64,000 nt of DNA from Roseofilum reptotaenium CS-1145 (GTDB taxonomy: Bacteria > Cyanobacteriota > Cyanobacteriia > Cyanobacteriales > Desertifilaceae): the NCBI RefSeq assembly GCF_028330985.1, contig NZ_JAQMUE010000080.1, positions 62,001-126,000 on the forward strand, in the 5' to 3' direction. Under the pieces are notes generated by a model. The model was not told where the DNA came from and did not search any database. It saw only the letters and a list, made by a program, of their open reading frames with translations. Shown here piece by piece: positions 2,889 to 52,570 of the stretch (the stretch's first letter is position 1; each line of letters starts with the position of its first letter). The position numbers and the translations under genes are program-made.

Positions 2889-3632
2889 TTAGGTATTCTT
2901 ATAGAGTTGAATCACGATCTCAGAGAGAATGGGCAATGATTTCAGCGATCCGTGAATGAGGTTCATGGCATTCAGGGGATGTTTGAGCATTTGTAGGGCA
3001 AGGGGAATGGGGGCAAGTTGACCTTGGGCGTTTATGGCATCATTGAGATTAGGCAGGTCTTGATTGTGGAGATCGCCAATTACCCGCACCATTCCCACAG
3101 CAATGCCTGCGCTCTGTAAGGTTTTTAAAATCGCAAATCCTTCCATATCGACAACCGAAGCCTGGTAGGTTTGACCGAGGTTCTGTTTTTTAGTTGCTTG
3201 AGTAATAATATGACTGCTGGTTAAGCCAGTTACGGGTTGGGTATGGGGATTGAGTCGATCGCTCAGGAATTGAGTTAAGGCGCGATCGCACTCTAGACTC
3301 TGTAAAGGGAATTCTGGAGCTAAATTACAGCATTGTTGATACACAACCACATCACCCACCTGGTGTTGAGCAGATAAACTGCCGGCTAATCCCAGGACAA
3401 CAAGAGTTGGGCGATCGGGTATAATTTCTGTAATCCACTGTTGTAAATACTTGCTGACGGGTTCACTTCCCATGGGAATGGGATAGACACGTGGCAACTG
3501 AGAGGATAAAGGCAAAGCACCCATACCTCGACGAACAGCATGATATTCAGCCCCTTGAGGGACTAAAATTACATTCGGTGATGAGAATTTAGGGCTGGCG
3601 ATCCGATCCAAGGTATCTATTCTCAGTTGCAA
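2889..3632 (-). CDS. Nucleoside phosphorylase/MTA-SAH nucleosidase-like protein
   Basis: 247-residue protein with the phosphorylase/nucleosidase fold: a Gly-rich segment (LVVLGLAGSLS, about 87-97), the strand-loop VGDVVVYQ, and the purine/ribose-binding motif VVDMEGFAI (about 161-169), where Met-Glu holds the ribose. The family cleaves or phosphorolyses purine nucleosides; cyanobacterial members of this size are usually annotated only as phosphorylase-like, and a hopanoid-type HpnG role is possible. The start is TTG and may be wrong, because there is no strong ribosome site and no early ATG. Stands alone between an ABC permease and a small secreted protein. Exact substrate unknown. Confidence 0.7.
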   Translation of the reverse strand: MQLRIDTLDRIASPKFSSPNVILVPQGAEYHAVRRGMGALPLSSQLPRVYPIPMGSEPVSKYLQQWITEIIPDRPTLVVLGLAGSLSAQHQVGDVVVYQQCCNLAPEFPLQSLECDRALTQFLSDRLNPHTQPVTGLTSSHIITQATKKQNLGQTYQASVVDMEGFAILKTLQSAGIAVGMVRVIGDLHNQDLPNLNDAINAQGQLAPIPLALQMLKHPLNAMNLIHGSLKSLPILSEIVIQLYKNT

Positions 3633-19796: not shown

Positions 19797-19887
19797 GTAG
19801 GTAGGCTAAAGTATCTGTAAAATAGCCAGCACCATCCCATTACCCATTACCCCCATTACCCATTACCCGGGTGAAGCGCTATAACCT

Positions 19888-21768
19888 ATGACTTCTCCTC
19901 CCCCTTCCCTAGAGAAACCCCGCCGCAAACAAAATGACTGGCAGCTTTTAATGCGACTGGCTCCCTATGCTCGTCGCCATGGAAAATTGCTGACAGCATC
20001 CTTAATCCTTTTATTGCCTCTGTCGTTGGCTGGCGCAGTTCAGCCTTTGATGATTGGACAAGCGGTTTCTAAACTTAAGAGCGAACCCACTTGGGCGATT
20101 TTAGATTCCTTATCGGTGTCTACCAGTATTAATCTCTTAGGGGGTTTGCTTCTGGTTACGATTCTCTTTCGCCTCCTATTTGCTGGCGTACAAGGGTTTA
20201 TGATTCAAAAGGTCGGACAACAGTTAACCGCAGATATTCGCGATGATTTATTTGACCATGTTACTGCCTTAGCCGTTAAATTTTTTGACCGAACCCCCGT
20301 CGGTAGTTTGATTACCCGGTTAACCAATGACGTGGAAGCCCTCGGAGAGGTCTTTTCCACGGGAGCGATCGGCATTATCAATGATATTGTCTCCATTATG
20401 GTCATTGGTGTAGTCATGTTTCGCCAGCAATGGCAACTGGCGCTTCTGTTAATTGGTTTACTGATTCCTGTCACCTTACTGATTATTTACTTTCAACAGC
20501 AATATCGAGCTGCCAACTATATCGCTAGGGAAGAATTATCCAAGCTCAACGCCCAATTTCAAGAAAATATTATCGGCATCGATGTCGTCCAACTCTTTCG
20601 CCGTGAGCGGTTTAATCAAGAACTCTTTCGTAAAAACAATCAACGGTTTATTGAAGCTATTGATAAAACCATCTTCTATGATTCCGGAGTTTCTGCGACC
20701 TTAGAATGGATTGCCCTCGTCGCCGTTGCTGGCGTTCTCGGTTTAGGCGGAATGCTCATTCTACAAGATCAACTTACGTTTGGTATCCTCTCTGAATTTA
20801 TCCTCTTTGCACCTCGTTTTTTCGACCCCCTGCGGCGGTTCGCGGAAAAATTCACCATGTTTCAATCGGGATTTACTGCCATTGAACGGATTAATGAACT
20901 CATGAGTCAACCCATTGATATTCGCGATCCAGAAGTCGAAAAACGCCAAAATCTACAAATAGGGGTAGCTTCACCCAGATCTGCATTGGAAAAGGAAAAA
21001 TTGGATCAATCCACCGCTACAGAACTATCAGAGCCAAAAATAGGTGAAATTCGCTTTGAAGAGGTTTGGTTTGCCTACAAAAAAGATGAATTTGTGATTA
21101 AAAATCTAGATTTTACTATTCGCCCGGGTGAAAAAATTGCCCTTGTGGGACCAACGGGAGCTGGTAAAAGTTCGGTGATTCGCTTGTTGTGTCGCCTCTA
21201 TGAACCCACCTATGGGAGGATTTTAGTTGATGGTATTGATATTCGCCATTTACCCCAACAAGAGTTGCGCCGTCATTTAGGCGTGATTTTACAAGATGGA
21301 TTTCTATTTTCTGGAGATGTGAAAAGTAATATTTCCCTGGGTGAATCCTATCCGTTATCTCAAATTCAAGCAGCAGCAAAACTGACCAATATTGACCGCT
21401 TTATTGAAGAGTTACCCCAAGGATATGACACCCAATTACGGGAAAGAGGTACAAATTTATCCAGCGGACAAAAACAGTTATTAGCTTTTGCGCGAGTCGC
21501 GATTCGCAATCCGAATATCTTAGTTTTGGATGAAGCAACATCGAGTTTAGATGTGGGCACAGAAGCCTTAGTCCAAGAGGCCCTCGATCAGCTTTTAATC
21601 AATCGCACCGCCATTATTATCGCCCATCGTCTATCCACCATTCGCAATGTAGACCGAATTTTTGTCTTAAAACAGGGGGCTTTAGTGGAAACAGGAACCC
21701 ATGAATCCTTATTAACTCAAAAGGGATTATATGCGAGTTTGTATCAGTTGCAAATGTTGGGGACTTGA
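19888..21768 (+). CDS. ABC exporter, fused membrane and ATPase domains (MsbA/MDR-like)
   Basis: 626-residue half-transporter working as a dimer. Six helices form the type IV exporter domain (about 30-330; FFDRTPVGSLITRLTNDVEAL is the conserved intracellular loop). The ATPase has Walker A GPTGAGKSS, signature LSSGQKQ, Walker B NILVLDEATSSLD and the H-loop IIAHRLSTI. An acidic-basic insert of about 30 residues (about 350-380) separates the two domains. Similar proteins export lipids, peptides or drugs; the substrate cannot be told. Confidence 0.92.
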   Translation: MTSPPPSLEKPRRKQNDWQLLMRLAPYARRHGKLLTASLILLLPLSLAGAVQPLMIGQAVSKLKSEPTWAILDSLSVSTSINLLGGLLLVTILFRLLFAGVQGFMIQKVGQQLTADIRDDLFDHVTALAVKFFDRTPVGSLITRLTNDVEALGEVFSTGAIGIINDIVSIMVIGVVMFRQQWQLALLLIGLLIPVTLLIIYFQQQYRAANYIAREELSKLNAQFQENIIGIDVVQLFRRERFNQELFRKNNQRFIEAIDKTIFYDSGVSATLEWIALVAVAGVLGLGGMLILQDQLTFGILSEFILFAPRFFDPLRRFAEKFTMFQSGFTAIERINELMSQPIDIRDPEVEKRQNLQIGVASPRSALEKEKLDQSTATELSEPKIGEIRFEEVWFAYKKDEFVIKNLDFTIRPGEKIALVGPTGAGKSSVIRLLCRLYEPTYGRILVDGIDIRHLPQQELRRHLGVILQDGFLFSGDVKSNISLGESYPLSQIQAAAKLTNIDRFIEELPQGYDTQLRERGTNLSSGQKQLLAFARVAIRNPNILVLDEATSSLDVGTEALVQEALDQLLINRTAIIIAHRLSTIRNVDRIFVLKQGALVETGTHESLLTQKGLYASLYQLQMLGT

Positions 21769-31480: not shown

Positions 31481-31688
31481 CGCTCAAAATCCTGAAAAAT
31501 CACACCAAATATATTAAGTGTTGATATAATATTGTACTCGGGTTGTATGATAGCCGGATATAATTTGCTTCTATAGCAGAGAAAGAGTTCGTGAGGACAT
31601 GGTTCAAGAGTGAAACCTAGCTACCATCACCTATTCCCTATTCCCTATTCCCTAGCGCGTAGCGCTATAAACTTCTATCGGGTGTGGA

Positions 31689-32243
31689 TTATCCGAGTAT
31701 TTCTTCCACTGTAAACGAAGTATCTGGAAACGATTGAAGCGCAATTTCTCCTGCTTCTAACCGTTGCACTTGCTGATAACCTTCCGGGGTGGGTTGTCGA
31801 TACACTTCTAAACACTGTTCGGGAATATTAACGAGCCAAACTTCCGGTATTTGCGCTTGTGCATAAAGGGGAATTTTGATTTGTTTATCCCCTCGAAGCG
31901 TTGAATCCGCCACTTCTACCAGTAAAAATATATCCTCCGGTTGCGGATGTCCATCCCGATACAAACCAGGACGGCGATGCAACAGGCATAAATCGGGTTG
32001 AGGTTCAGAGGTATCATCTAACTGTACCGGATTTTGTCCTCTCAACCTGACTCTTCCCCATAATTTCGATAGGAATAATTCAGTTAGGCGATCCACGTAA
32101 AAGGAATGAATTGGGCCAATAGGTGACATTTTGATAATTTCTCCTCGAATTAATTCCGTGCGATCGCCCGCAGACAGAATCCCAGCCATACCCATCATAT
32201 GGTACTCTTCGACTGTAAATAACCGCTTCAGTAACAGTGACAT
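31689..32243 (-). CDS. Uma2-family (DUF820) PD-(D/E)XK nuclease-like protein, copy A
   Basis: 184 residues. The Uma2 fold is restriction-endonuclease-like: a Glu in LIRGEIIKMSP, Asp in EPQPDLCLL, and the VEVADSTLRGDKQIKIPLYA strand with catalytic Glu and Lys. The family is greatly expanded in cyanobacteria and its biological role is unclear. The gene lies 31 bp downstream of a paralog and shares a nearly identical stretch with it (about residues 97-165) while the middle (about 50-95) has diverged. Stop followed by an AGCGCGTAGCGCT palindrome. Confidence 0.9.
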   Translation of the reverse strand: MSLLLKRLFTVEEYHMMGMAGILSAGDRTELIRGEIIKMSPIGPIHSFYVDRLTELFLSKLWGRVRLRGQNPVQLDDTSEPQPDLCLLHRRPGLYRDGHPQPEDIFLLVEVADSTLRGDKQIKIPLYAQAQIPEVWLVNIPEQCLEVYRQPTPEGYQQVQRLEAGEIALQSFPDTSFTVEEILG

Positions 32244-32274
32244 CGCTTCCTCCTAAACCTATATGAGGTGTAGA

Positions 32275-32841
32275 TTATCTAAAGATTTCCTCAATTCTAA
32301 ACCGGATATCTGGCAACAACTGAACCGCAATTTCTCCTGCTTCCAACCGTTGCACTTGCTGATAACCTTCTGGGGTGGGTTGTCGATACACTTCTAAACA
32401 CCGTTCGGGAATATTAACGAGCCAAACTTCCGGTATTTGCGCTTGTGCATAAAGGGGAATTTTGATTTGTTTATCCCCTCGAAGCGTTGAATCCGCCACT
32501 TCTACCAGTAAAAATATATCCTCCGGTTGCGGATGTCCTTCCTCATAAAAATCATCACGGGGACGCAGCAGGCATAGATCCGGTTCGGGTTCAGAGGTAT
32601 TATCTAACAGTATCGGACTTTGGACTCTTACCCATGCCTGTTCACCGAATTGGGAAAGCAATAGTCTATTCAATATTCTATTGAGGCGATCCACGTAAGC
32701 TGCATGAACTGGACCCATTGGTGACATTTGAACAATTTCTCCTCGAATTAGTTCTGTGCGATCGCCCGCAGACAGAATCCCAGCCGTACCCATCTTATGG
32801 TACTCTTCGACTGTAAATAACCGCTTCAGCAACAGTGACAT
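32275..32841 (-). CDS. Uma2-family (DUF820) PD-(D/E)XK nuclease-like protein, copy B
   Basis: 188 residues from the ATG at 32841 (MSLLLKRLFTVEEYH, same as copy A); an upstream start would overlap the S4 gene. Catalytic-type residues are kept: RGEIVQ, EPDLCLL and VEVADSTLRGDKQIK. Follows the photosystem II S4 gene by 24 bp and precedes copy A, so the three may share a transcript. Product role unknown, as for copy A. Confidence 0.9.
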   Translation of the reverse strand: MSLLLKRLFTVEEYHKMGTAGILSAGDRTELIRGEIVQMSPMGPVHAAYVDRLNRILNRLLLSQFGEQAWVRVQSPILLDNTSEPEPDLCLLRPRDDFYEEGHPQPEDIFLLVEVADSTLRGDKQIKIPLYAQAQIPEVWLVNIPERCLEVYRQPTPEGYQQVQRLEAGEIAVQLLPDIRFRIEEIFR

Positions 32842-32864
32842 CGCTTCCTCCTCTGCTTCTAACC

Positions 32865-44780: not shown

Positions 44781-47700
44781 CTACTCAATACTCGCTTCCG
44801 CTTGATGGACAATCGCCCTCAACTCATCGACTCTCTCTGCACTTGCACTTGTCCACAATCCGCGCTGATGTGCCTCTAATAACCGTTCTGCCATATCTCG
44901 GAGCGCCCAAGGATTGTGCTTTTCCACAAACTTCTGTACCTTTGGGTCGAGTAAATAGGCTTCGCTTACGCCCTCATAAATGTGATCGGCAACGCAATGA
45001 GTGGTGGCATCATAGGCAAACAAATAGTCCACCGTTGCCGCCATTTCAAATGCTCCTTTATACCCATGACGCATGACACCGGCAATCCACTTCGGATTGA
45101 CCACTCGCGATCGATAAACCCGGTTAATTTCCTCTTGCAGCGTGCGAATTTTCGGATGATTCATAATGGCATGATCGCCAAAATAAACCGTGGGATTTTT
45201 CCCAGTTAATGACCGTACTGCCGCCGTTAATCCCCCTTGAAACTGATAATAATCATCCGAATCTAATAGATCGTGTTCGCGGTTATCTTGATTGTGAAGA
45301 ACCACCTGTAAATCTTGTAAGCGTTGGGCAAACACTTCCGGTGCAGACTGACCTTCTCCTTGCCCCGTATAGGCATAACTGCTCCAATTGAGATAGGCGC
45401 GGGCTAAATCTTCATCGGTGCGCCAATTTTGGGATTCAATTAAGCCTTGTAAGCCTGCGCCATAGGCTCCTGGTTTCGAGCCAAACATGCGATAATGCGA
45501 TCGCCCCCACGCCTGCTCTTCACTTAACCCTAACTCTTGCCATTTCTGGGTTTCCCCTCTTACCGTCGCCGCTAAAGGGTTGTCCTCTTCCGGTTCATCC
45601 AACGCTGCAACCTTCTCCACCACCTGATTAAACAGATCGATCAAATTCGGGAAACCATCCCGGAAAAACCCCGAAATTCTCAGGGTTACATCCACCCTCG
45701 GCCGTCCCAAAATAGACACCGGAACCACCTCAAAATCCACCACGCGACGAGACGGCCCATCCCAAACCGGTTGTACTCCTAACAACCATAAAGCCTCAGC
45801 CAAATCTTCGCCTCCCGTCCGCATGGCTGAAGTGCCCCACATGGACAATCCCAAGGTTTTTGGATACTCTCCATTTTCCTGGGTATAGCGTTCAATCAGA
45901 GCCTCTGCTGCTTTTCGGGCCATTCCCCAAGCCGTTTCTGTGGGAATCGCCCGAATATCAACCGAGTAAAAATTCCGACCGGTGGGCAGCACTTCCGCCC
46001 GTCCCCGCGTAGGAGCACCCGACGGCCCGCTGGCAACATAGTTGCCTTCTAGTCCCTGCAACAAATTGGTGATTTCTTGGGCGGTTGCTTGTAATTGAGG
46101 ATACAAGGTTTGCTGAATCCAAGTCAGTTCTGTTTGGGTAATGGGTAATGGGTTATGGGCAATTCCCCCATCTCCCCATCCCCCCATCTCCCCATCCCCC
46201 CATCTCCCCATCCCTACCTCTAATAAAAATTGGTCTACATAGTTTGCCGCTAATGTTTCCAATTGCTCCACTACATCGCCCACTTGGTGATAAACCTGAT
46301 CTTCAATGATTACTGGAGGATCTAACTGGGTAGTCGGATCTGTGGTGAGGGGGTCAAACTCTACACCTAAGTCTTCCGCTAAAGCACGAGTAATTCCCTG
46401 GGGACGGGAGCGGGAAATGGCAATGATCAAATCTCGCAGTTGTCGTCCTTGGGGACATTGGCCGAAAATATGCAGACCATCGCGAATTTGGGCTTCTTTG
46501 AGTTCGCACAGATAGCCATCAATGCGGGTGGAGAGTTGGGAGGTGACTTCAGTTAAGTCCTCTGGAGTTAAGCCTAAATCTTGGTCGAGATGTTCTTGAC
46601 GGATCAATTCTGTGATTCGAGATTGGATAGCGGGTAGCCTGGAAGGGTCTAAACTATCGGCTTCATAATATTCATCAACTAGGGTTTCTAGTTGTTGCAG
46701 GGAGCCATAGAGTTCGGCGCGAGTCAGGGGTGGGGTAAGATGGTCTAGGATAACAGCTTGCGATCGCCGTTTGGCTTGCGATCCTTCCCCCGGATCGTTG
46801 ACAATAAACGGGTAAAAGTGTGGCATTGCCCCGAACGCCACTTCCGGATAACAGCACTCAGACAGGGCTAAACTCTTACCGGGTAACCATTCTAAGTTCC
46901 CATGTTTGCCCACATGAATGACTGCATCTGCTTCAAAGATCTCTTTAATCCACTGATAAAAGGCTAGATAATGGGGAGTGGGTTCTAAATCAGGTGCATG
47001 GTAATTTAAGCTGGGGTCTAGATCGTATCCCCGCGACGGTTGGATACCGACAAACACATTCCCCAAATTTAAACCGGCAATGGTAAACCCTGTACACCCC
47101 GATTCTGTAGGGGCGGGTTTACCAATATTTTGCTCTCCCAACCCAGATTTTTGTAAACCCGCCCTTACAATATTCGTATCTACACCAGCAAAACCCCATC
47201 GGTTATTAATGCCTTGTTGCACCTCAACCGGTAACTGCTCAAACTCCCGTTCATAATCATCTTGAGACAGGTATATTCCCCCCATCCCTCTATCCCCCCA
47301 TCTCCCTATCCCATTTACCATCCGTATCTCATTCCCTTCTAAGTCATTCGTCACCCCTGCGGTTAAGCGACTCATGAGATCCTCTGACGTTGCTGGAATA
47401 TCGTGTAACTCATATCCTGCCGTTTTCAGAGCTGCCAGAATTTCTACACAACTGACAGGAGTATCTAAGCCGACACCATTAGCGAGTCGTCCGTCACGGG
47501 TGGGATAATTGGCGAGAATAACAGCAATTTTGCGATCTTGGGCAGGTTTTTGCCGCAGTTTCACCCAATTGGCAGCTAAGTCAGCGACAAAATTAATTCG
47601 GTTGGCAACGGGTTCATATTGCACGACATCGGTTTGCAGTTGCTGATTATAGGTTTGTGCTGCTTTGAAGGAAATGGCGCGGGTGATGATTCTCCCATCT

Positions 47701-48737
47701 ACTTCTGGTAGGGCAATATTCATCGCCACATCTCTGGGTAGGAGTCCTCGGTTGCCGTCTTGCCATTGCTCGACGGTGGAGCTACTGAGGATAACTTGTA
47801 GGGTGGGTACATTGAGGGTGGAGAAAAATGCAGGAGTTGAGTCCTTGCTTTGTAGGGAATGGATCGCGAAGCTGGTAGTATTGAGCAGAACTTGGATGGG
47901 TTGGTTGTCTGGGGGTTGGAAAAGCTGTAGAATTTCCTCTTGACATTGGCGATCGCGCAACGAAGACACAAACACCGGCACTGGCATTAACTGGCGATCT
48001 CTCAAAGCATGACATAGCGCCTCTATTGGAGCCACATTTCCGGCACAATAATGGGCACGATAGAAGAGAATCCCCACTTTTGGCCAATTTTGCCCTAACT
48101 CCTGGTTTAGCGGCAATACGCCCACTTTAGGAATGGGCTTAGGTTCAGCAATCGTCTGATTTTCGCACCGAAATGCTGTAGGGGCGAGTTCACTCATCTT
48201 CTCCTTTTCCCACCGAGATATTGGTGAACCCGCCCCTACGGAACCCTCTCCCACAAAACCCGCTAAACACAACAACCCATTGCGAATATTTTCAACTCCC
48301 CCCTCATTCCAATAGCGCCATAATTGGTTAACCTGTTCCAAAGACACTGTGGAATGGCTCATTAGCTCCACATCGGGGGAATCATCTCCAGGCATCACCA
48401 CCAAAGCAATACCCTGATTTTGGGCTAATTCTTTCACTACTTCCAAACCATAAGACCAATATGCCCTTCCGCCCAACAGACGAACCAGAATCACTTGGGC
48501 GTGCTGCAATACTCGTTCGGCATAGTCATCAATCGACAGTTGCTGTACCAAGTGTAAGAGACTGGCGACCCGAATCTGAGGAAACTGGGCAGGAAGATGG
48601 GGAACCGTTGCGGCTAAGGTTTGAATATCTGTATCTGCTGCGCTGAGAATAACGATAGGGGCTGAAGTTTGTTCGAGGATAACAACCCCTTCGTCTTGGG
48701 GGTTCCATCCTCCGGGAGTTGCGGCGATTCGATGCAT
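44781..48737 (-). CDS. cobN: Cobaltochelatase subunit CobN
   Basis: 1318 residues. Large ATP-dependent chelatase subunit that inserts cobalt in corrin synthesis (ChlH is its magnesium paralog). Signatures: NVFVGIQPSRGYD, VHVGKHGNLEWLPGKSLAL, FIVNDPGEGSQAKRR, LSMWGTSAMRTGGEDLAEAL, VDVTLRISGFFRDGFPNL and MRHGYKGAFEMAATVDYLFA. Four in-frame stretches made of spacer-type repeats interrupt it at about residues 166-187, 474-486, 523-544 and 840-867; flanking conserved blocks continue, so the frame is intact. No cobalamin riboswitch is visible upstream. Start ATG, 223 bp from divergent cikA. Confidence 0.93.
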   Translation of the reverse strand: MHRIAATPGGWNPQDEGVVILEQTSAPIVILSAADTDIQTLAATVPHLPAQFPQIRVASLLHLVQQLSIDDYAERVLQHAQVILVRLLGGRAYWSYGLEVVKELAQNQGIALVVMPGDDSPDVELMSHSTVSLEQVNQLWRYWNEGGVENIRNGLLCLAGFVGEGSVGAGSPISRWEKEKMSELAPTAFRCENQTIAEPKPIPKVGVLPLNQELGQNWPKVGILFYRAHYCAGNVAPIEALCHALRDRQLMPVPVFVSSLRDRQCQEEILQLFQPPDNQPIQVLLNTTSFAIHSLQSKDSTPAFFSTLNVPTLQVILSSSTVEQWQDGNRGLLPRDVAMNIALPEVDGRIITRAISFKAAQTYNQQLQTDVVQYEPVANRINFVADLAANWVKLRQKPAQDRKIAVILANYPTRDGRLANGVGLDTPVSCVEILAALKTAGYELHDIPATSEDLMSRLTAGVTNDLEGNEIRMVNGIGRWGDRGMGGIYLSQDDYEREFEQLPVEVQQGINNRWGFAGVDTNIVRAGLQKSGLGEQNIGKPAPTESGCTGFTIAGLNLGNVFVGIQPSRGYDLDPSLNYHAPDLEPTPHYLAFYQWIKEIFEADAVIHVGKHGNLEWLPGKSLALSECCYPEVAFGAMPHFYPFIVNDPGEGSQAKRRSQAVILDHLTPPLTRAELYGSLQQLETLVDEYYEADSLDPSRLPAIQSRITELIRQEHLDQDLGLTPEDLTEVTSQLSTRIDGYLCELKEAQIRDGLHIFGQCPQGRQLRDLIIAISRSRPQGITRALAEDLGVEFDPLTTDPTTQLDPPVIIEDQVYHQVGDVVEQLETLAANYVDQFLLEVGMGRWGDGEMGGWGDGGIAHNPLPITQTELTWIQQTLYPQLQATAQEITNLLQGLEGNYVASGPSGAPTRGRAEVLPTGRNFYSVDIRAIPTETAWGMARKAAEALIERYTQENGEYPKTLGLSMWGTSAMRTGGEDLAEALWLLGVQPVWDGPSRRVVDFEVVPVSILGRPRVDVTLRISGFFRDGFPNLIDLFNQVVEKVAALDEPEEDNPLAATVRGETQKWQELGLSEEQAWGRSHYRMFGSKPGAYGAGLQGLIESQNWRTDEDLARAYLNWSSYAYTGQGEGQSAPEVFAQRLQDLQVVLHNQDNREHDLLDSDDYYQFQGGLTAAVRSLTGKNPTVYFGDHAIMNHPKIRTLQEEINRVYRSRVVNPKWIAGVMRHGYKGAFEMAATVDYLFAYDATTHCVADHIYEGVSEAYLLDPKVQKFVEKHNPWALRDMAERLLEAHQRGLWTSASAERVDELRAIVHQAEASIE
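46136..46218. repeat. C-rich tandem tract inside cobN (16-mer CATCTCCCCATCCCCC)
   Basis: Two complete and one partial tandem 16-mers (46169-46214), joined to GGGTAATGGGTAATGGG. On the coding strand it reads as a Gly/Trp/Asp-rich insertion (GRWGDGEMGGWGDGG). The same sequence type fills spacers elsewhere. Confidence 0.85.
47106..47169. repeat. 64-bp inverted-repeat element in cobN, copy 1
   Basis: Bounded by TGTAGGGGCGGGTTTAC and its imperfect complement GTAAACCCGCCCTTACA. Encodes an insertion in CobN between VDTN and TGFTIAGLNLGNVFVG. Confidence 0.85.
47278..47315. repeat. C-rich tract inside cobN
   Basis: CCCCCCATCCCTCTATCCCC-type repeat continuing CATCTCCCTATCCC. Encodes the insertion GIGRWGDRGMGG. 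Same tract family as the spacer before the ABC permease (1672-1724). Confidence 0.75.
48177..48240. repeat. 64-bp inverted-repeat element in cobN, copy 2
   Basis: Bounded by TGTAGGGGCGAGTTCAC and GTGAACCCGCCCCTACG. Same length and end type as copy 1 at 47106-47169, about 1 kb away in the same gene; the interior differs. Confidence 0.85.
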
Positions 48738-52523: not shown

Positions 52524-52537
52524 TTAGAAAAGGGCTA

Positions 52538-52570
52538 GGGGCAGGTTTGAAACCTGCCCTTATTTATTAC
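52538..52570 (+). terminator. Rho-independent-like terminator after terD
   Basis: Near-perfect 10-bp stem GGGCAGGTTT/AAACCTGCCC with a 2-base centre, followed by TTATTTATTACTTATT. It also resembles the core of the 64-bp cobN elements (GGGCGGGTTT/AAACCCGCCC). Confidence 0.75.

Follow-up and report, generated by a model that had tools for sequence, protein, structure and literature searches.

An in-frame palindromic repeat in cobN of Roseofilum reptotaenium and its subfamily in coding genes

The stretch under study comprises 64,000 nucleotides from Roseofilum reptotaenium CS-1145 (NCBI RefSeq assembly GCF_028330985.1, contig NZ_JAQMUE010000080.1, positions 62,001 to 126,000 of the forward strand), hereafter called the window. 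It carries the gene cobN, which encodes the cobaltochelatase subunit CobN and is interrupted at four places by repeated DNA that is open in frame: two copies of a 62-bp palindrome and two tandem-repeat tracts (Table 1). The open reading frame (ORF) of cobN is intact and encodes 1318 amino acids. Its product scored 1629.6 bits against the CobN equivalog profile TIGR02257 (cut-off 822), with residues 1-1315 aligned to profile positions 1-1226, and it also matched Pfam CobN-Mg_chel and the solved CobN structure 9uk9.

Table 1. Positions of cobN, of the repeats inserted in it and of a third palindrome copy in the window. CM, covariance model; TRF, Tandem Repeats Finder.
Feature	Position	Strand	Evidence
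cobN, host of the four insertions	44781..48737	-	ORF, TIGR02257, Pfam, 9uk9
Palindrome copy 1, 62 bp, translated VGAGSPISRWEKEKMSELAPT, aa 167-187	48178..48239	-	CM score 75.1 bits
Palindrome copy 2, 62 bp, translated VRAGLQKSGLGEQNIGKPAPT, aa 524-544	47107..47168	-	CM score 80.4 bits
C-rich tandem tract, CCCCATCT/CCCTATCC type, translated GRWGDRGMGG	47277..47312	-	TRF score 58
Perfect 16-bp tandem array, 3.1 copies, translated GRWGDGEMGGWGDGG, hypervariable loop 4	46165..46214	-	TRF score 100
Second tandem type (GGGTAATGGGTAATGGG, GGGTAATGGGTAAT...), translated AHNPLPITQ, adjoins the 16-bp array	46136..46164	-	Unlike the 16-mer
Decayed third palindrome copy (IGVASPRSALEKEKLDQSTAT)	20959..21020	+	CM score 39.0 bits

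A first-pass annotation of the same DNA had described four in-frame repeat insertions in cobN with the conserved blocks kept, and this description held: all four segments are present, the flanking conserved CobN blocks remain in frame around each of them, and the orthologue alignment agrees. The tract at 46136-46218, which had been read as tandem 16-mers, is of that kind in its perfect array and consists of a second tandem type at 46136-46164; the latter resembles a tandem at 19836-19868. The two inverted-repeat elements are indeed copies of one element of constant length, but the proposed 64 bp included one extra base on each side. The tract in loop 2 is a shorter array of the same type as the perfect 16-bp array. 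No Rfam family matched cobN at E values up to 0.1. In a predicted CobN model (28 sequences; mean predicted local distance difference test score, pLDDT, 71.7) all four inserts lay in or beside segments with pLDDT <50 between ordered elements, and CobN is predicted to be probably still functional, with the extra loops disordered.

For the comparison with orthologues, 95 CobN sequences were aligned and loop lengths were taken between conserved anchors. The window's own genome is designated G000 and its closest relatives, all of the genus Roseofilum, G001-G005. Loop 1 holds palindrome copy 1, loop 2 the short C-rich tract, loop 3 palindrome copy 2 and loop 4 the 16-bp array. Loop 1 measures 51 aa in G000 and 24-26 aa in 87/87 orthologues from other genera (insert in 0/87); among the relatives it reaches 29 aa in G003, 60 aa in G002 and 95 aa in both G004 and G005. 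Loop 2 has 29 aa in G000, 17 in G003 and 15-17 in 88 orthologues (insert in 0/88). The inserts at residues 166-187 and 475-487 are absent from all 87-88 non-Roseofilum orthologues compared, and it follows from the loop lengths that the occupation of loops 1 and 2 is confined to Roseofilum, with G003 excepted. Loop 3 counts 40 aa in G000 and 19 aa in the insert-free G003, so that the two are exactly 21 codons (63 nt) apart; outside the genus its median is 18.5 aa, and 16/88 species carry other inserts of at least 15 aa. For loop 4 the values were 45 aa in G000 and a median of 31 elsewhere, with at least 15 extra residues in 26/88 species. The proposed check that these segments are missing from other orthologues was borne out for loops 1 and 2; in loops 3 and 4, repeats of other kinds are present in 18-30% of species. 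The extra residues in the latter two loops are often plainly repeat DNA (LSAECKVLSAEWEES in G006, SALSPQPSALSPQ in L005, and others), and from their hypervariability across species we conclude that both loops serve as landing sites in the CobN of cyanobacteria generally. Sequencing error is an unlikely cause of the inserts, since relatives from separate assemblies differ in what is inserted in frame at these four places. In the cobN genes of G005 (L106) and G004 (L107) loop 1 holds a different in-frame repeat, SQKDPPKSPLKRG...PLFKGGWGD, as does loop 4 of G004; this repeat resembles the CobN loop 4 sequence of L066 and L069.

The palindrome has the form GTAGGGGCGGGTT-N36-AACCCGCCCCTAC and a constant length of 62 nt, which with one further nucleotide amounts to 21 codons. 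Its consensus folded into a single long hairpin (-39.9 kcal/mol, z = -10.4), in which the GTAG end is predicted to pair with CTAC. The consensus arms are perfect over 17 bp and constitute terminal inverted repeats such as those of miniature inverted-repeat transposable elements (MITEs), and the interiors diverge by ~27%. The RNA of the two cobN copies yielded z values of -4.3 and -5.3, equalled by 0/200 shuffles, and the mRNA hairpins of the copies ranged from -28 to -40 kcal/mol. A genome search for the element, as the first-pass annotation had suggested, found 16 copies with at most three mismatches in G000; the corresponding numbers in G001 to G005 were 20, 44, 17, 46 and 27. At two or fewer mismatches the palindrome was present in 63/293 genomes of the order, with up to 71 copies. 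When the pattern was reversed as a control, 0 matches were obtained in every genome searched. A short hairpin at 52535-52563 of the window, CTAGGGGCAGGTTTGAAACCTGCCCTTAT, is a short form of the 62-nt palindrome.

To locate the copies relative to genes, all those with at most three mismatches in G000, G004 and G005, plus a few with four from the same stretches (n = 93), were examined. Context was defined as the longest open frame spanning each copy, read from the surrounding stretches, so that ORFs and not annotated genes were counted. Within ORFs of at least 390 codons we found 53/93 copies. Unsupervised clustering of the 36-nt interiors, with ORF status unused, separated 60 copies, 53 of them in ORFs, from 32 copies with none in ORFs, and left 1 outlier (Fisher P = 3e-18). 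We refer to the mainly in-ORF cluster as C-type. With near-identical copies removed, 31/36 C-type copies versus 2/24 others lay in ORFs (P = 2e-9). The C-type subfamily of the palindrome in Roseofilum lies mainly inside genes, not in spacers. Copies in other genera fell within an ORF of at least 200 codons in 0/39 cases (a few counted twice). When the whole of G000 was searched with a covariance model that allows indels, copies were added, and 11/13 matches above 48 bits lay in long ORFs; the lower-scoring matches of altered length were mostly of the intergenic type, and no hidden set of intergenic C-type copies emerged from that search. The hosts include CobN, glutamate synthase (GltB), QueA, UvrD helicase, hydantoinase, PBP1C and Cmr2/Cas10, and further CHAT, NB-ARC, WD40, polyketide synthase (PKS) and ABC proteins. 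The earlier impression that the inserts consist of spacer DNA applies to the C-rich tracts but, in this genus, mostly not to the C-type palindrome. In 576 kb of the window's own genome, most of the longer CCCCATCT-type arrays are found outside long ORFs and one besides those in cobN sits within an ORF (473 codons); the C-rich tracts are spacer-type repeats. Nor is invasion of a gene such as cobN unusual, as had been supposed, since loops 3 and 4 hold repeats of other kinds in CobN from further cyanobacteria, and the palindrome occurs in dozens of Roseofilum ORFs besides cobN.

Frame 0 was used by 51/53 in-ORF copies, reading V(G/R)AG(S/L)P...(G)EPAPT, and the remaining two are orthologues of each other. 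At the loci of the genus-wide search (L161-L175, G001-G003 included, some repeated) copies were likewise in frame 0 of long ORFs, two copies excepted. The third copy in the window, which the covariance-model search brought up, is also read in frame 0; it belongs to an ABC transporter gene (19888-21765, plus strand) and lies in the linker that joins the membrane domain to the ATPase domain. Frame 1 contains a TAG stop inside the GTAG end, and frame 2 a TGA or TAA stop from the conserved T(G/A)AAC near the far end. Because frames 1 and 2 carry these element-internal stops, frame 0 is nearly always the sole open frame, and host-gene selection can therefore retain only frame 0. This explains frame preservation more simply than the 66-bp insertion proposed earlier, in which 64 bp would be joined by a 2-bp target duplication. 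We rejected that proposal: the length steps are multiples of 3 nt, the codon step is 62 + 1 = 63 nt, loop 3 exceeds that of G003 by just this amount, and the orthologue comparisons turned up no clean duplication.

In either orientation the frame-0 peptide is rich in Gly, Pro and Ser and linker-like (VGAGSP...GEPAPT), and within genes 22 copies lie one way and 29 the other. The opposite strand was open in frame 0 in 51/51 in-frame copies (32/32 without near-identical copies). Neutral divergence from the consensus at 27% would leave ~56% open. The stricter codon-permutation null gave a product of 2e-5, and a column-independent null gave 0.83-0.95 per copy. The two-strand openness fits an element that has resided for a time in genes in both orientations.

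In related species the same loops of UvrD, QueA, GltB and Hyd1 either hold a copy or lack it, with changes in multiples of 3 nt. In place of the copy, these loops were empty or held a fragment, another copy or the 29-nt short form VGAGLKPAPT, in whole codons, and as judged from these sequence comparisons the turnover is recent. Empty sites were searched by blastn with flanks and with joined protein flanks; rearranged loops prevent exact junctions from being drawn, and presence or absence of a copy is clear.

Several known classes of repeat were compared with the palindrome. GTAG-tagged repetitive extragenic palindromic (REP) sequences have an unpaired GTAG at one hairpin end, are mostly intergenic and measure 20-40 bp; cyanobacterial GTAG-12, GTAG-15 and GTAG-16 repeats have been described (PMC3733652), as have intragenic REPs that encode amino acids (PMC3733652, PMC10969869). 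The palindrome is like GTAG REPs in its GTAG end, its palindromic form, its dispersal and its association in G004 with flanked genes for Y1 transposases, the REP-associated tyrosine transposases (RAYTs). It is unlike them in its 62-nt unit with a 36-nt interior and in having one subfamily that is mainly intragenic: the C-type (53/60 in long ORFs) is not predominantly extragenic, and the other subfamily and the copies in other genera are. Rickettsia palindromic elements (RPE-1 and others) are in-frame palindromes of ~150 bp (PMC10969869) ending in CGTC (PMC3733652). Here, too, short palindromes lie in frame in unrelated genes, with a fixed open frame and a peptide that the host tolerates; on these features, the only ones compared, the cyanobacterial element differs in its 62 bp and its GTAG/CTAC ends, having neither the CGTC ends nor the ~150-bp length. 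Cyanobacterial MITEs (e.g. Nezha) and enterobacterial RU elements occur in genes as well (PMC10969869, PMC2759123). They share with the palindrome small size, non-autonomy, terminal inverted repeats and occasional coding, but for the palindrome neither a target duplication nor a parent transposon with ends like its own came to light. By its paired GTAG/CTAC ends, fixed 62 nt and gene-dwelling subfamily the palindrome is distinct, and we file it as a member of neither the REPs nor the RPEs. No description of it was found in the literature covered, which did not extend to the first papers on the Rickettsia elements and on small repeats of cyanobacteria. The C-rich tandem tracts of 7-16 bp in and around cobN look like the short tandemly repeated repetitive (STRR) sequences of cyanobacteria, although no published unit was matched to them exactly; unlike STRR sequences, two of the arrays here are translated inside CobN.

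Y1 transposase genes are present in the genus Roseofilum. In G004 two Y1/RAYT genes (L239 816-1391 and L195 near 3069-3410) are directly flanked on both sides by GTAGGGGCGGGTT termini, and G004 was the only genome in which such flanking was seen; in G000 the element does not flank the Y1 genes examined (C86 and C82). The flanked genes of G004 show the same arrangement as the REPtron, described for RAYT genes with GTAG REPs (PMC3733652). From this arrangement we infer, as a plausible mover of the palindrome, a RAYT.

We consider it likely that two of the cobN inserts represent a short mobile palindrome of which a Roseofilum subfamily lives in coding genes, and that the other two are spacer-type tandem repeats. 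The palindrome is best read as a RAYT/REP-type repeat of cyanobacteria in which one subfamily became adapted to life in genes. Copies would spread through the REP-associated (Y1) transposase or by recombination, and insertions out of frame or into folded parts would be purged. The survivors would gather in a small number of surface loops and may duplicate, shorten or be replaced there in multiples of three. The two C-rich tracts would have entered as spacer-type short tandem repeats of the CCCCATCT type and then expanded in permissive loops. A further step, which we advance tentatively as somewhat short of an even chance, is that a spacer-dwelling repeat of the order gave rise to a coding-adapted lineage in Roseofilum through selection on the element itself, for a frame free of stops on both strands, encoding a harmless linker and spreading through housekeeping genes in either orientation. 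Several points weigh against the main interpretation. The copies share ancestry, which makes the P values too optimistic and weakens the figures for two-strand openness. The counts rest on ORFs, and one copy (L198:3078) may sit just upstream of the start codon of its gene. G000 has no match to the flanked L239 transposase of G004, and the GTAG that is unpaired in GTAG REPs is paired with CTAC here. The orthologue comparisons, at sites that are too churned, revealed no transposition event, clean empty site or target duplication.

Under neutral random insertion followed by filtering, intergenic copies would lose the 62-nt spacing by indels while genes preserve length. Purifying selection does keep the frame, and the pattern searches required the exact 62-nt spacing. 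We nevertheless regard this account as unlikely: the indel-tolerant search of G000 had intergenic C-type copies in only 2/13 matches above 48 bits, the other subfamily, which shares the termini and the fixed length, is well kept between genes of the same genomes (0/32 in ORFs), and the exact 62-nt form is kept intergenically in other genera (0/39 in ORFs). Loss of intergenic copies through indels was rejected as the cause of the bias, as the covariance-model search of G000 brought no hidden set of them to light.

It is less probable still that the host recruited the inserts as useful linkers or as regulatory hairpins, for example to slow translation, and kept them by selection. The great stability of the mRNA hairpins and the recurrence of similar peptides at domain junctions, as in the ABC transporter linker, are in keeping with recruitment; against it, copies at one site appear, vanish, shorten or are replaced between close species, the interiors have diverged as described, and the hosts are unrelated enzymes. 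We give a similarly small chance to the segments being ordinary hypervariable linkers that turned repetitive by local slippage without any insertion. Slippage suits the C-rich tandem tracts and the variable lengths of loops 3 and 4 in 18-30% of other cyanobacteria, but outside Roseofilum loops 1 and 2 keep a constant length, and slippage cannot yield the same 62-bp sequence in many unrelated genes and between genes in other genera. The presence of copies in unrelated genes already disproves a slippage origin for the palindrome itself.

The best-known in-frame palindromes in proteins are those of Rickettsia; neither their mover nor the reason for their frame is clear. Roseofilum is a free-living lineage with a Rickettsia-like habit of in-frame palindromes. 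Turnover at shared loops of close species, a sister subfamily that has the same ends and lies between genes in the same genomes, and the flanked Y1 genes of one species make gene targeting versus filtering testable, and likewise whether an element can be selected for codability on both strands. The finding extends past cobN, and the coding-adapted subfamily is its most interesting part. For annotation it carries the warning that low-complexity loops of cyanobacterial enzymes can be repeat DNA.

Other repeats were noted in the window. A TATAGCGCTTCGCGCTA-type palindrome with tandems of the heptamer CCTATTC recurs at no fewer than seven places (8742, 10604, 25980, 29227, 31630, 36626 and 41808; families D3 and I1-I5). 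Long direct repeats pair 31668-31967 with 32254-32553 (300 nt, 90%) and 32074-32254 with 32672-32852 (181 nt, 88%), which suggests a tandem duplication of ~590 bp.

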